A stretch of DNA of 64,000 nt, taken from assembly GCF_027579695.1 (NCBI RefSeq), contig NC_083577.1, positions 36,053,698 through 36,117,697 on the forward strand, given 5' to 3'. The position numbers and the translations under genes are program-made. Of this stretch, positions 1-60,676 are shown one piece after another (within the stretch, counting starts at the first letter, position 1; each line of letters begins with the position of its first letter). Origin of the DNA: Neoarius graeffei. Its lineage: Eukaryota > Chordata > Actinopteri > Siluriformes > Ariidae. The notes below the pieces were generated by a model. That model was not told the origin of the DNA. It saw nothing but the letters and a program-made list of their open reading frames with translations, and searched no databases.

Positions 1-298
1 TATATATATATATACACGTATATAATTTCAAGTGGTAACAGGAACTAACTTGTTTTGCGGCTGTTCAACAACATTAAATGTAAGTTTTAGCAGATACGAG
101 GTAACAATTTGTTTGCGTTGGCAAATTTCTTGCATGTAGAAGGAATAAAATACTTTCGGGTATGCTGTTATTAGAAAACAATCAGCTTCACGTCAGACCA
201 TATCGCGCCACCCAGTTGTTGATTAAATTCCTATAACAGTTATATTTCTTATGTAGCTAAGTGGGAACAAGTTAGGCCAATTTATTATGTGCTCTCAC
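1..298 (-). other. start of slc10a2 intron 1
   Basis: This is the intron that follows the slc10a2 exon on the minus strand; its GT donor is at 298-297 (AG|GTGAGA). A short TA repeat occupies 1-16. I see no other coding or repeat signal. Confidence 0.7.
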
Positions 299-678
299 CT
301 GAGATCCATGTCTCCATCCAGCCAGTAGGTGATGACATTGGAGTTGGTGCCTCCAGGACAGCAGCCCATGATTAAGATGACCACAGCCTGTATGGGAAGC
401 ACCTGGAAGACTAGGGCGAAGATGAATGCAGTGAAGGGCATGATGCCAAATTGGCAGAGAAAGCCAATGAAGATACCCCATGGTCGGCGGATGTGTGCCC
501 AGAGCTTGTGCACCTCCACTGTGCAGCCCATGGCAAACATGACCATGGCCAACATAACAGTGAGCACAACGCTTAGGACTGTGCTGAGGATAATGTTAAA
601 ATTACTCTCTGGCACAAGACATGATGTGCCAGAGCACACAGTAGCATTGACATTGCAGGTCTCTATAGGTGTTGACAT
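299..678 (-). CDS. slc10a2: SLC10A2 (ASBT) ileal sodium/bile-acid cotransporter, first coding exon
   Basis: This exon encodes the first 126 residues of the apical sodium-dependent bile-acid transporter, a plasma-membrane protein that takes bile salts into enterocytes with Na+. The translation starts MSTPIETC and continues with NATVCSG (glycosylation site and cysteine as in mammalian ASBT), VPESNFN, a first hydrophobic segment (about residues 28-50), FLCQFGIMP, a second hydrophobic stretch, then GCCPGGT and DGDMDL. The last two are hallmarks of SLC10 proteins, and the match is clearly closer to SLC10A2 than to SLC10A1. The exon ends at a clean AG|GTGAGA donor at 299/298; the rest of the gene lies off the left edge. 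I chose the ATG at 678 because mammalian ASBT starts a few residues before NATVC. An in-frame ATG at 702 would add eight residues. The frame stays open to 1053, but that extension resembles no SLC10 protein and is probably 5' UTR or promoter. No damage is seen. Confidence 0.87.
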
Positions 679-1649
679 GATGAATCCAGCACTCAAACTC
701 ATAGAATTTAATAAATAAGAAAATAAATATTCAAAACCCAGAAATAAACCTGCAAGCAATGCAAAAAAAAAATCAATAATTGTTGTTGTTAAAAGGTGTA
801 GATTCCAAAATTGACAGGTTAAGAAGAAGAAGGAAGGGAGGATTTTGGAAAGGATCCTGCTGATCTTTGGGTCTTTTGCTCTTTCTTTCTTAACTGTTCC
901 CTCCCTCCTGCTGCCTGACACGAGAATGGCACAAGGCACACAGAGACTCTTCATAGGCTTAGTGCCCTTTAAAACCTGTTCAGAACAAATAAAAATGGGC
1001 AAAGCCATGAAAAACGAACTTGTGCCAAATGTTTTTATGGGGTCATTGTCCAAATATACTTATAAAAGCAAGAAAAACTGTAATTGTTCACCTTTAGGGA
1101 CAATAAATGTTCTTTTATAACGTTATGACATGTAATTTTATAGTGCCCTTCAAAGGCCCACACACCACCACTACCATCATCATCATCACCATCATCACCA
1201 TCACAACTACTTAGTGGGGATCATGGCTGCTATGAGACACAAGATATGTGTCAGAGTGGAATGATGATAGTAAAACAATAGGGCATGTGTTGTAAAACTC
1301 ACATAAGAGGTTATATTACAGATATGGGAACGAGAATTACTTAGCATGCCTTTCAGACTTCACACACACACACACCTACACACACACACACTGGGTATAA
1401 AGTTAAAGTTTAAAAACCTAAACTGAATACTGTAGCTGAAAATTAGCTGAACACAGAATATTCAAAGTTCAGCAGATGATTTTTGTCCACTGAGTACATT
1501 GATTGCAAGGAACCAAACCATGAAGCAAACATATAATTTTTGAAAAATAGTTATGTCTTAAATACAGCCAAAAAATAATACAACCAAAATCAATGCAGCA
1601 TATTTATTCAAGCTATTTAGAATTTGAAAGCATTGTTGCCCAGTATTGG
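679..1649. other. upstream region of slc10a2, no gene seen
   Basis: This should hold the slc10a2 promoter on the minus strand, but I cannot place a start site. It contains an imperfect CAT/CAC triplet tract near 1168-1205 and a CA-rich tract near 1361-1392. No exon-like sequence was recognised. Confidence 0.5.
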
Positions 1650-53388: not shown

Positions 53389-53797
<409 letters not shown>

Positions 53798-53799
53798 TA

Positions 53800-55640
53800 C
53801 CCCCACCGCCCGACTCAGGCCGGGCGGCTGTCCGGCCTGCAGCCGACTCCCCCCCCCGATGGGAGAGGAAGTCCGCCATGACCATCTGTGCCCCCGGCCT
53901 GTGGACCACCTTGAAATTAAAGGGTTGGAGTGCCAGATACCAACGGGTGATCCGCGCGTTGGCATCCTTCATGCGGTGGAGCCACTGGAGGGGCGCGTGG
54001 TCTGAACAGAGGGTGAAAGGGCGCCCCAGCAGGTAGTACCGGAGGGCGAGGACCACCCACTTGATGGCCAGACACTCTTTCTCTATGCTGCTGTAGCGCC
54101 CCTCACGCACCGACAGCTTCCTGCTGATGTACAGGACAGGGCGGTCCTCCCCCTCCACCTCCTGGGACAAAACCGCCCCCAGCCCTCTGTCCGACGCATC
54201 GGTCTGCAACACAAAGGGGAGAGAAAAGTCAGGGGAGTGTAAAAGTGGCCCCCCACACAGTGCAGCCTTTACCTCAGAAAAAGCCCGCTGGCATTGCTCC
54301 GTCCACTGGACCGGATCTGGTGCCCCCTTTTTAGTGAGATCAGTCAGCGGGCTGGTGACGTCCGAATAATTAGGTATAAACCTACGATAATAGCCAGCCA
54401 GCCCCAGGAACTGTCTCACCCCCTTTTTGGTCTTGGGCCTCGGGCAGGCCGCAATTGCTGTGGTCTTGTTAATTTGGGGACGCACCTGCCCGTTGCCCAA
54501 GTGGAAGCCCAGATACCGTACTTCCACCCGCCCAATCGCACACTTCTTTGGGTTGGCTGTGAGACCCGCTCACCTCAGCGACCTAAGGACGGCCCTTAAG
54601 TGTTCAAGGTGCCTCGGCCAGTCATTACTATATATGATGATGTCGTCGAGGTAGGCGGCCGCATAGGTGGCGTGGGGGCGGAGGACCCTGTCCATCAGCC
54701 ACTGAAACGTAGCGGGCGCCCCAAACAGCCCAAACGGAAGTGTGACGAATTGGTGTAAACCAAACGGTGTGGAAAAGGCCGTTTTTTCTCGGGATAGTGG
54801 AGTCAAGGAGATCTGCCAATATCCCTTCGTCAAATCCAGTGTCGAATAAAAGCGAGCCGTGCCGAGTCGATCGAGCAACTCATCAATACGAGGCATTGGG
54901 TACGCGTCGAATTTAGACACCGTGTTGACTTTTCTATAGTCCACACAGAACCGGACCGACCCGTCGGCCTTGGGTACCAAGACCACCAGGCTGCTCTAGT
55001 CACTATGGGACTCCTCGACGATGCCCATTTCGAGCATGGTCTCAAGTTCTTCCCGAACCACCTTTTTTTTGTGTTCGGGTAGCCTGTAAGGGCGGCTACG
55101 CACTACCACCCCCGGGGGTGTCTCTATGTGGTGCTCTATGAGGTTAGTGCGACCGGGCAGGGGCGAGAACACATCCGAAAACTCAGTCTGCAACTGGGCG
55201 ACCTCCATGAGTTGGGTCGGGGAGTGGTGGTCTCCACAGAGGACCGGAGAGGTACGTGATGCCAATGCTCCTTTTTGAACCTCCGGCCACAGCTCCGCCT
55301 TCTCCGGAACCACCGACACCAACGCCACGGGGACCTCCTCATTCCAGAGTTTAAGCAGATTGAGGTGGTAAATCTGTAGCGCCCCACCCCTGTCCGTTCG
55401 CCTCACCTCGTAGTCGACGTCCCCAACTCGCCGTGTGACCTCAAAGGGTCCTTGCCACTTGGCGATCAATTTGGAGCTCGACGTGGGCAACAGTACGAGT
55501 ACCTTATCTCCCGGTGTGAACTCCCTAAGGCACGTACCCTTGTTGTACAGGCGGGCTTGCCATTCTTGGGCCTGCCGCAAATTCTCCTGGGTTAGGTGGG
55601 TGAGGGTGTGGAGTTTTGCGCGCAGGTCCATAACGTATTG
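53800..55640 (-). mobile_element. fossil reverse transcriptase/RNase H region
   Basis: Motifs along the minus strand: integrase C-terminal text (FTPGDKVLVLLP), then RT motifs CVDYRKVN, PRIDELLDRLG and YLDDIIIYS, then LGLAGYYRRFIPNYS and RNase H LQTDASDRGLGAVL. Fossil and broken. Confidence 0.9.
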
Positions 55641-55671
55641 AATTTCATTTTTGCTTTGTGAAGTACTAGAG

Positions 55672-57872
55672 TAGCTCATGCTGGTTATGTATGCACTTTT
55701 ATGTCCAGAGCTAAACTCTTCAGAAATCAACTAATTGAAGGTCACTGATCAATGTTTGCTTGGTAACATATTTGCCACTGACGGCGAAATTGGCGAAATG
55801 GCCACGCCCCCTTTTTAGCGAAGAACTACCAATTACCACCACTGTATCTCCGGAACCGTTCGGCCTAGAAGGTGATGTGACCATTCAAAATGTCCGGAAT
55901 TGCCACATTATGGGGGGTCGGTAATACATTATTATGTCCTAAAACCAATGGTTTTCAATATATTTGCAATAAACTAATTTCTGCATCATACATTACAGTC
56001 CTGACCTTTTTTATATTACTTATGTACATTATCCATATTTGTCAGTTTAGTTATGTGGATTTCGACACTTTTTGCCCTTATTACAACCACAAAACACCAC
56101 ACATTTTAAGTTCTTTGCTCTGCAAGTGCATTTCTTGCTACTCATACATGACGTTGGGCATTTGCATGGAGGCGGTAGGTCATCTGGTCTGCATGGTACA
56201 GGCAGTATCACAGGAGTTATGCCGAAGTCTGTTGTTTTATATCCAAACTTGAGCAGATCTAGTTTAATCATTAGAGGATTTGGAGCTTCTAACCACAATC
56301 TGCACTGCAGATATGCTCGTTTTATGTGTTCTTGTAGTGTGGAGGAACAGCACACAAGCTGGTTAAAGTCAAGTTCTTTCCTAGAATTATGGTACTGCTC
56401 CCATCGATACTCATCAAATGTTGAACAGTCGGTTTTCTTTAATCCAGTTACAAGGAATTTTTCATCATTACTTATCATCTTCGGTGACAATTCCTCTGCA
56501 CCAAACCCTTCCAATAGAGAGAGATCCATTGAAGCTTTCAGGCCGGCCAGCTTTGAACCCAACTTGCTGGTACTGTCGCACCCACTTAATGCGTGAATTG
56601 CTGGTAGACACGACACCAAATTGCTGTTCAGTTGATCAACTAACAGGTGAACAGGCACAGTCTTCTTGTTCTTCCTGTTGCCAAGCTTTACATAGAGTTT
56701 TTGTAGTTCCCATGTTTTCTTGAAATGGAAGATGAGGTTTACGAAAATGTCTGTGTCAGGTGAGTCAACTAAGATCGATTGAAAACCATGTTTTACACCA
56801 TCATTGATATGGAACATGATTCTGTCATCAGCCTCTTCTTGGTTGCTTGAGAGCTTTGTGATTGTTGTTTCTTTGCCCGCAAACAGTTTTCTACATTCAC
56901 CACCATATACTCCACCGAAGAAGATTTCCTTATCTGACACAATATTTTGTAGCATCCACTTGAAGAAGTACTCTTGGAACCTCACTTTGTTCAACATTGA
57001 GCTCCAGGACATGTCTAGATCAACAGGTACCTTCTGATTGTCAGACCTAATGGTGATAGTGATTTGTTCGGAACTTCTCTCTGCACGTTCCATTTGCTTG
57101 ATCGATGATTTTTGATAAACATCAAAAATAATATCTATTCTTGTTGACTCCACTGCGGTAGCAAGAATGATTTTGGATAAAGTCTCAGCCAATTGCCCAA
57201 ATGTTTCAATGTCCATCTTTTTTATTGGTAGTCTACGTACGAGTGCCATGAAATCAACTGTTATCATTTGAGCATCACATTTTACATTCCTTTTGTCTTG
57301 TGGAAGTTGGTTGACCAGTTCTCTTGATAGGGACGCTTTATCAGGCAGTGATTCAAATTATAATTACTTTCCATCAAAGAACACTTTAAAACTTGAACGC
57401 TGATCACTTCCTAAAACAAAAAGAAACAAATATAGGATACACTTGGTATTTTCATGAACACTCAGTAGCAAAACAGTGTCAGGGCAATGGTGGGATGAGT
57501 CATGGCATGGCATATATATTACATCCATGTAAATTACACTGAACATGGGTTCGAAATGTGTTGAAATTAGTCTTTTGCAAATATCTTGAAAACCATTGGT
57601 TTTAGGACATAATAATGTATTACTGACCCCCCATAATGTGGCAATTCCGGACATTTTGAATGGTCACATGACCTTCTAGGCCAAACGGTTCTGGAGATAC
57701 AGCGGTGGTAATTGGTACTTCTTCACTAAAAAGGGGGCGTGGTCATTTCGCCAATTTCGCCGTCAGTGGCAAATGTGTTACCAAGCAAACATTGATCAGT
57801 GACCTTCAATTAGTTGATTTCTGAAGAGTTTAGCTCTGGACATAAAAGTGCATACATAACCAGCATGAGCTA
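55672..57872 (-). mobile_element. 2.2-kb TIR element encoding a FEN/PIN-like plus CXC protein
   Basis: Two terminal inverted repeats of 310 bp (55672-55981 and 57563-57872), about 95 percent alike, start TAGCTCATGCTGGTTATG. They are flanked by the 6-bp duplication CTAGAG (55666-55671 and 57873-57878), which is LTR-element sequence on both sides. Inside is one long minus-strand frame. No DDE transposase, reverse transcriptase or capsid-like gene is seen. The long TIRs and clean duplication mean it inserted as a unit. Confidence 0.88.
56047..57267 (-). CDS. FEN/PIN-like nuclease domain with C-terminal CXC domain, transposon protein
   Basis: 406 aa from the first ATG; the frame is open back to 57357, so the true N-terminus may be spliced or lost. 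Three acidic motifs stand in FEN1/XPG order: QEEADDRIMFH (about residue 143), LVDSPDTDIFV (about 167) and HALSGCDSTSKLG (about 227). These correspond to the EAEA, DxD and GCDY-type metal sites of 5' nucleases. The C-terminus (about 366-406) is cysteine-rich, CKCPTSCMSSKKCTC and CVVFCGC, resembling the tesmin/TSO1 CXC zinc/DNA-binding domain. A nuclease fused to a DNA-binding domain within long TIRs suggests it serves the element's movement (inference). I know of related fish and invertebrate proteins annotated only as CXC-domain or uncharacterised. No stop or frameshift lies within the 406 codons. Confidence 0.75.
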   Translation of the reverse strand: MITVDFMALVRRLPIKKMDIETFGQLAETLSKIILATAVESTRIDIIFDVYQKSSIKQMERAERSSEQITITIRSDNQKVPVDLDMSWSSMLNKVRFQEYFFKWMLQNIVSDKEIFFGGVYGGECRKLFAGKETTITKLSSNQEEADDRIMFHINDGVKHGFQSILVDSPDTDIFVNLIFHFKKTWELQKLYVKLGNRKNKKTVPVHLLVDQLNSNLVSCLPAIHALSGCDSTSKLGSKLAGLKASMDLSLLEGFGAEELSPKMISNDEKFLVTGLKKTDCSTFDEYRWEQYHNSRKELDFNQLVCCSSTLQEHIKRAYLQCRLWLEAPNPLMIKLDLLKFGYKTTDFGITPVILPVPCRPDDLPPPCKCPTSCMSSKKCTCRAKNLKCVVFCGCNKGKKCRNPHN

Positions 57873-57899
57873 CTAGAGTAAAGGTCCCTCCTCCCAATT

Positions 57900-59310
57900 T
57901 TCCCGCAGCACGTCTAGAATGCCGCGCGGCTTACGCCCATATAATAATTCGAATTGGGAAAACCCCGTGGAGGCTTGGGGGACCTCTCGAACTGAAAACA
58001 GCAAGGGCTCGAGCCACTTATCCCAATTACGTGCGTCCTCACTTACGAATTTTTTAATTATATTCTTAAGGGTGTGATTGAACCGTTCCACTAAACCGTC
58101 CGTTTGTGGGTGATACATGCTGGTGTGGATCGGCTTAATCCCCAATAACCCATACAGTTCGCACAGTGTCCGTGACATAAACGTGGTGCCTTGATCAGTC
58201 AGAATCTCTTTCGGGATTCCGACTCGGGAGATAATGCGGAAGAGCGCCTCCGCAATACTGCGTGATGAGATATTGCGCAGAGGCACTGCTTCCGGGTATC
58301 GCGTTGCATAGTCCACCAGAACTAATATAAAGCGGTACCCTCGTGCTGACCAATCTAATGGCCCGACGAGATCCATCCCAACTCTTTCAAACGGGGTCTC
58401 GATTAATGGAAGAGGGCGCAAAGGCGCTTTTGGAATGGCCGCTGGATTCACTAACCGGCATTCGCGGCACGCCATACACCACCTACGGACATCCCCGCGA
58501 ATCCCCGGCCAATAGAATCGGGCCATTATTCGGGCTAGTGTCTGATCCTGCCCCAGGTGTCCAGCCATGGGATTAAAGTGAGCCGCCTGGAATACCAATT
58601 CCCGGCGGCTCTTTGGAATTAAAAGCTGCATGACTCGCTCTTTAGTTTGAGTGTCCTGCGTCACTCGGTATAATCTATCCTTCATAATCGCGAAGTAGGG
58701 GAAGGACGAGGTGGCGTTCGGCTGGAGCGTTTGACCATCAATTACTCTCACTTGGTCAAACTCATGTTGCAGAGTCTCGTCTCGCGACTGCTCTAATGGG
58801 AAATCTGCGAGGGATTCTCCAAGAGAGAGAAGAGGGGCCGGCGGCTCCTCACTCTGACGCGGAGATGACGTAGATGGCTCTGTGACAGCTGCTCCCACCA
58901 AAGCGACACCGGGACCTCCCCCTGTTAAATGGCAGGACCCACTCTCTACTAAGCATGTCATTAAACCCCGAAATCCCGGCCAATCAGTCCCCAAAATTAA
59001 GGAGTGGGTAAGGCGAGGATTAACCGCCGCCTTCACTATAAATTTTTCCCCCCGGAAAAAAATGTGGACTGACACCAAAGGGTAGCTGTGAACGTCCCTG
59101 TGCACACACAACACCTTCACCCCCTGTGCACCCCCCAATGCCTCGTGTTGCACCAGGCTTTGGTGAATTGAGGTCTGATTACAACCAGAATCCACCAACG
59201 CCTGATATGTATCCCCTTGGATACTCACCGGTATGCGATACGCTCCGGCCCGATCGAGGGCGGCTTCTGGCGCGTCGGGGATCTGAACCACCGCGCCCAC
59301 CTCCATTACC
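57900..59310 (-). mobile_element. fossil protease/integrase region
   Basis: Zinc knuckle CWRCGEPGHLQQQC, protease-like LVDSGCNQTS and ILGTDWPG, then integrase HHCC-type region (HLGQDQTLAR; CRECRL) and the core with MDLVGPL, LTDQGTTFMS and HPQTDGLVERFN. It lies upstream of the reverse transcriptase in the element's own direction. Confidence 0.9.
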
Positions 59311-59319
59311 ATGCACTGC

Positions 59320-59534
59320 TGTTGGAGGTGGCCCGGTTCCCCGCAGCGCCAGCAAACCGGCCCGGGCTTCCTCTCTGCACCGGTGTTCTGGGGCTCACTC
59401 ACCTGAGGGGGGGCAGAGACAGACACAGAAGGGTGAAACGGGAGGGCACCGAAGGTGCGGCAGGCCGGCTGGGGTGGTGCCGGCCCCCGCCTCCGCGGTG
59501 GGGGAATGGGGCGAGGACGGGACACAGAAGGAGG

Positions 59535-59579
<45 letters not shown>

Positions 59580-60320
59580 AGAGAAGAGAAGAGACTGTCT
59601 GCTGTCCTGCCGCCGGAACAGCCGCCAAATGGTCCTCCGCCAGCTCAATGGCCTGATCCAGCGACGCCGGGCGGTGGCACTGGACCCACTCTGCGGTTCC
59701 TGTGGGCAAGCGCGCAATGAACTGCTCCAGCACCACCTGATCGACGATCTTCTCGGCGTCGCGGTTGTTGGCCCTCAGCCACCGCCAGCAGGCGTCCCGG
59801 AGTTGCTGGCCAAACGCGAACGGGCGGCCGACTTCCTCCAAGCGCAGAGCGCGGAAGCGCTGGCGCTGCTGTACGGCGGTGCGCCCCACACGCTGGAGGA
59901 TGGCCCGGTGAAGGTCCGCGTAGGCCAGCCGGCGGTCGGCGGGGAGCTGTAGCGTGGCCAGCTGCAGCGCGGCCAGCTGCGCCTCCCCTGTTAGCAGGGG
60001 GAGGAGGCGCGCCGCGCGCTGATCCATCGGCCACCCCGAGGTCTCCGCGACTTGCTCAAAGAGCATGATGAAAGCCTCGGGGTCATCCTGCGGGCCCATC
60101 TTTGTCAGGGTGAGGGGGGACGGGCCCGCGGTGGAAGCGTTGATTGTCCCCGCCGACGCGAGGAGGTGCCAGAACGCCTGTCGGTCCTCTTGCTGGGCCA
60201 ACACCAGGGCCTCGAAGCACTGCTCCTGCTCCTTACGGAGCATGACGAGCGCCTGGTGCTGGCTTTGCTGGGCCGTGGCGAGGGCGTGGACCAGGTCGGC
60301 GAATGGGGAAGACTCCATGG
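59320..60320 (-). mobile_element. fossil gag region
   Basis: Starts near MESSPFADLVHALATAQQ, with a gag-like helical region (DPEAFIMLFEQVAETSGWP; FIARLPTGTAEWVQ) as in Gmr1/SCAN-like gags. Contains a GA microsatellite at about 59529-59574. Part of the broken element. Confidence 0.85.
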
Positions 60321-60346
60321 GGCGGTTCGGCATTCTGTGCTCCAGA

Positions 60347-60364
60347 TCCCGGGTTTCGGCACCA
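60347..60364 (-). other. primer-binding site of the LTR element
   Basis: TGGTGCCGAAACCCGGGA on the minus strand, one base after the LTR. It begins TGG and is complementary to a tRNA 3' CCA end. Confidence 0.8.
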
Positions 60365-60365
60365 C

Positions 60366-60676
60366 TGTGGCAGTTCCTATGTATGGGCAGAGCACAGAAG
60401 ACGGCAGGCCAGAACTGAGTTCCCAAAACTCTTTATTTTCAGCTTTTCAGCTTATTTAAACACTCTCACACACTCAGACACACGCACACACATCAGCCGT
60501 CTGGTTCGGGAGAGAGCCCCTCTGCTCTCGCTCTCCCTCCTTAAGTAGGGCACGGTCACTGGGAAGACACACAAACACAGGTTAATTGCTCTCAGGTGTA
60601 GTGATTCTGCCACTTACCTTCCCTGCCTCCGCCCTCCTGTCACAGACCGGCACTTGACCACGCCCCCACTGCCACA
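60366..60676 (-). repeat. LTR (5' side of the Gmr1-like element)
   Basis: Pairs with 53485-53797; a handful of substitutions and one short indel separate them. Confidence 0.95.

Follow-up and report, generated by a model that had tools for sequence, protein, structure and literature searches.

A transposon copy with a FEN-like nuclease frame in a fish genome is very probably an internally deleted Academ-type element

Results

Features of the locus

The window, a stretch of 64,000 nucleotides of the Neoarius graeffei genome, contains an LTR retrotransposon into which a DNA transposon with long terminal inverted repeats (TIRs) has inserted. As the sequence-only reading had described, the transposon has one long frame, which lies on the minus strand. 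The features, given in window positions, are as follows.

53485-60676, minus strand: host LTR retrotransposon (context, outside the element), with LTRs at 53485-53797 and 60366-60676
55661-55663, no strand: target-site duplication AAG, left copy
55664-57880, gene on the minus strand: whole element, 2217 bp, with ends TACTCTAGTAGC (gene 5' side) and TACTAGAGTAGC (gene 3' side)
55664-55981, plus strand: TIR at the gene's 3' side, 318 bp
56047-57357, minus strand: open frame of 436 codons (stop to stop, stop codon included), a C-terminal remnant
56065-56166, minus strand: CXC-like cysteine-rich tail, about residues 398-431 of the frame, from alignment
56218-57276, minus strand: FEN1/EXO1/XPG-like 5' nuclease domain, about residues 28-380 of the frame, from predicted fold and acidic residues
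57342-57347, minus strand: internal-deletion junction with 5-6 bp of microhomology, from comparison with copies L009, L010, L012 and L018
57563-57880, minus strand: TIR at the gene's 5' side, 318 bp
57881-57883, no strand: target-site duplication AAG, right copy

The host LTRs show about 98% identity, with 5 mismatches over 311 aligned bases and one 2-bp gap, in agreement with the earlier view that the insertion went into a young LTR element; the window copy moved recently. The host element, presumably Gypsy-like, adjoins a TA/TG simple repeat, and a clear target duplication was sought at its ends (53485 and 60676) and not seen.

Borders and target duplication

Read from the window alone, the element had been given a span of 55672-57872, TIRs of 310 bp and a 6-bp CTAGAG target duplication. 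Long TIRs are indeed present and are 96% complementary, with a measured length of 318 bp, and the true borders lie 8 bp further out on each side. The left flank (window 55540-55671) was compared with the genome, and 40 matches were scored of 1728 candidates. One is the locus itself; the other 39 all end at window position 55663, before TACTAGAG, and the five empty sites read from among them all continue directly as GTGAAGGTCCC. The filled site is GTGAAG-TACTAGAGTAGC...GCTACTAGAGTA-AAGGTCC. Because filled and empty sites were compared at this locus (the comparison covers the window insertion), the duplication can be set as AAG and the element as 55664-57880. The 6-bp duplication was dropped, as the empty sites lack the word, and TACTAGAGTA belongs to the element's own end. 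The two TIR ends are unlike at two bases, and this difference gives part of an inverted repeat the appearance of a direct one, the false 6-bp duplication.

The search for further copies that had been proposed was run with the TIR against the genome (2.34 Gb). All 33 candidates were scored and yielded 34 matches, which we read as 17 copies including that in the window (L009-L025). Sixteen are two-ended; L015 has one end within the stretch fetched. The two-ended copies are between 544 and 3613 bp long, and the genome TIR search found no copy with family ends above 3.6 kb. A perfect 3-bp duplication stands directly outside the ends of all 16 (ATT, TGA, AGG, CTA, ACT, TTT, AAA, CAT, TTT, TCC, TCT, TCT, GTG, ATC, TTA and AAG). 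The gene-5'-side end is TACTCTAGTAGC in 16/16, and the gene-3'-side end is TACTAGAG in 15/16, with TACTGGAG in L024. Across copies L009-L025 the two-base difference between the family ends is kept (TACTCTAG on the gene 5' side in 16/16, TACTAGAG on the 3' side in 15/16; window 55664-55677 and 57867-57880), and it may mark left versus right ends.

Internal deletions among the copies

The copies have their outer parts in common and differ in their internal breakpoints, according to comparisons read for eight of them. In the window copy a 5' piece (oriented positions 1-539) is joined to a 3' piece whose first position is 534 or 535, according to the copy used for comparison. A few codons of the window frame precede this junction, so that the frame is a C-terminal remnant. 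Four copies of 2621-2630 bp (L012, L013, L018 and L020) have inverted repeats of about 486 bp, and two others (L014 and L017) have inverted repeats of 687 bp. Structures of this kind are typical of non-autonomous derivatives with internal deletions.

Copy L023 is itself a near-perfect palindrome of 2478 bp (193-2670) that holds sequence unseen in the other copies compared, and its frames include CxxC motifs. It was considered as the holder of the lost N-terminal part and set aside, as its match to the N-terminus of the relatives described below was not significant (best E 0.34).

The protein left in the window copy

The acidic motifs noted earlier (QEEADD, SPDTD and GCDSTS) are present in the frame, with D35 and D79 further upstream. 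In the alignment E175 and D177 are found in 24 of the 25 rows (one gap), and D201 and D261 in 23 of the 25 (one gap and one N each). Structure comparison of the predicted nuclease (VIA-align) returned 5' nucleases in 50/50 listed rows. The model thus points to a FEN-type fold with a cluster of acidic residues, as had been supposed from the letters. By sequence, neither the window frame nor the A1 profile matched the PDB. A phycobilisome linker matched by the A2 profile (E 0.058) and DUF1878, the sole Pfam match of the window frame (E 0.28), were taken as chance.

The tesmin-like CXC domain of the earlier reading is recovered as a cysteine-rich, CXC-like tail; a Pfam TCR match appears in 1 of the 25 aligned members (E 9.7e-4), and the window frame is without one. 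Relatives of the frame were found neither in the phage collection nor in one scan of viral contigs.

Changes in the frame were compared among the 10 copies that keep at least 1.2 kb of it. For 272 synonymous sites there are 16 private changes and for 1021 nonsynonymous sites 43, a ratio of 0.72, so that no selection was detectable in these copies (binomial p 0.26); the pairwise pN/pS is 0.79. The frame is uninterrupted in six of the 10, has an in-frame TGA in L009, L013 and L024, and is split between frames in L021. This pattern fits a passenger sequence, with weak constraint possible. L019 and L023 have no match to the frame, yet they have family ends and perfect duplications; they moved without the frame, which is therefore not needed in cis.

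Longer relatives and a DDE-like region

A protein search of the genome (96 scored of 757 candidates) found, among the matches listed and beyond the family copies, relatives at 24-32% identity, some of them in frames that are far longer. Long stretches were read for L056, L057 and L058. The L056 element measures 6812 bp; its ends are TAGACTAGGTC, its target duplication is TGC, and its frame of 1378 codons ends short of the CXC tail. L058, at 6705 bp, has ends TAGACTGGTACC and the target duplication ATG, and its frames, of 535 and 953 codons, extend as far as the tail. At L057 no clear TIR was found, a short inverted repeat there being rejected as one. The long relatives appear to encode three parts, in one frame or two adjoining frames: an N-terminal part that contains cysteines, a probable DDE core, and a 5' nuclease of XPG/FEN-like type. 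Most of them also have the CXC tail.

The middle region of the relatives is probably a DDE (RNase H-like) transposase core. In the VIA-align comparison of its model, which is of moderate confidence, the first 17 of the 50 listed rows are DDE transposases, RAG1 or integrase (Hermes 8.1, ISCth4 8.1, Transib 7.0, RAG1 6.4). The sequence-only reading had named longer relatives with a standard DDE transposase as what would speak against it; a DDE-like region was indeed seen in them, as a probable assignment from a predicted model. Its DDE-like motifs lie at residues 433-838 of the L056 frame, and when 15 of the 17 copies were searched with the proteins of the relatives, every match fell downstream of residue 928 of that frame. 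That no DDE motif is visible in the window copy is accordingly correct, the transposase core being deleted there.

At the sequence level the only name found for this middle region was Pfam DUF6589, a family whose function is unknown and which falls below cut-off in L056. It matches the DDE-like region (L056 3139-4971 and A2) in 4 of 11 stretches, with a best E of 9.3e-6, and may be part of an Academ-like transposase. Next to a relative of the window frame, L047 has an open frame of 257 codons (119-889, minus strand), which we take from its motifs to resemble a Tc1/mariner transposase.

Discussion

We consider the window element very probably non-autonomous: an Academ-type DNA transposon of the AcademX lineage that has lost internal sequence and most likely depends on transposase in trans. 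A microhomology-joined internal deletion removed the gene's 5' portion and with it the entire transposase core. The window copy kept its TIRs and would have been moved by transposase supplied in trans, which would cut at the TACT...AGTA ends and join the cut ends to target DNA with a 3-bp stagger. The catalytic steps would fall to the DDE-like region.

The element could instead derive from a DDE superfamily other than Academ and carry a FEN-like nuclease by chance. In its favour, the one sequence-level name for the middle region, DUF6589, does not point to Academ; against it, the 3-bp duplication, the nuclease and the several-kb size of the relatives fit AcademX and Academ as excerpted from PMC10045372 and PMC10294476, and we regard such a derivative as improbable.

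The earlier reading had offered either an unusual nuclease mechanism or a deleted derivative, and our results support the latter and not the former. A self-sufficient transposon moved by the FEN-like nuclease and CXC protein alone, without DDE transposase, could account for the lack of a DDE-like part in 16 of the 17 copies (all but L019, by size; frames were viewed or, for 15, searched), for the acidic nuclease residues kept in the window copy and for the six uninterrupted frames. It is very hard to reconcile with the movement of L019 and L023, with a frame that is itself a deletion product, with the lack of detectable selection and with the DDE-like region in the longer relatives, and we give it little credence. 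Site-specific insertion into the 10-bp near-palindrome TACTAGAGTA looked compelling at first, when every copy proved to be bordered by that word or by TACTCTAGTA, but it is refuted for the window insertion, where the 39 non-self matches end before the word and the five empty sites read lack it, and with duplications that vary between copies it deserves practically no weight.

Within the preferred Academ-type reading, the nuclease fused to the DDE region might still be a working part of transposition. We put forward only tentatively, as an unlikely idea, that it works on element ends or gaps, trimming flaps or the non-transferred strand there, and so helps to set the 3-bp duplication, unlike the helicase-bearing sister lineage with its 9-10 bp. 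Deleted copies in which the nuclease survives, such as the window copy, could then supply or hinder this step in trans.

With these results a seeming exception disappears, namely a transposon driven by a FEN nuclease and marked by a 6-bp duplication. They also show how two mismatched bases in a pair of inverted repeats can be mistaken for a longer target duplication. The element very probably belongs to a known type of transposon and gives no support to a new way of moving DNA.

Among known systems, FEN1, EXO1 and XPG share the predicted fold and acidic residues; they serve hosts or phages in repair and replication, and identity in the listed rows is about 9-16%. The Academ nuclease is XPG-like. 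The Academ superfamily and its AcademX lineage reportedly go back to Kapitonov and Jurka 2010 and to Kojima 2020, and AcademH is said to be the subject of the latter. IS3EU and GingerRoot have similar TA..TA ends and a 6-bp duplication, as was first read here (PMC10045372, in excerpt); the real duplication of the window family is 3 bp. Academ is listed among 20 DDD/E superfamilies (PMC9587614, in excerpt), and its mean length in a bivalve library is 5565 bp (PMC10294476, in excerpt). AcademX has duplications of 3 or 4 bp and AcademH of 9 or 10 bp, lengths that PMC10045372 relates to the encoded nuclease and helicase, respectively. With AcademX our family has in common the 3-bp duplication (16/16 two-ended copies, and L056 and L058), a nuclease domain in the protein and relatives of several kb, in which a DDE region is probable (PMC10045372, PMC10294476); the window copy differs in having no transposase core, and the likeness is one of printed features rather than of reference Academ proteins. 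AcademH belongs to the same superfamily, but combines a helicase with a 9-10 bp duplication (PMC10045372), whereas a Pfam scan of the L056-L058 frames found no helicase and the window family combines a nuclease with a duplication of 3 bp in 16/16 copies.
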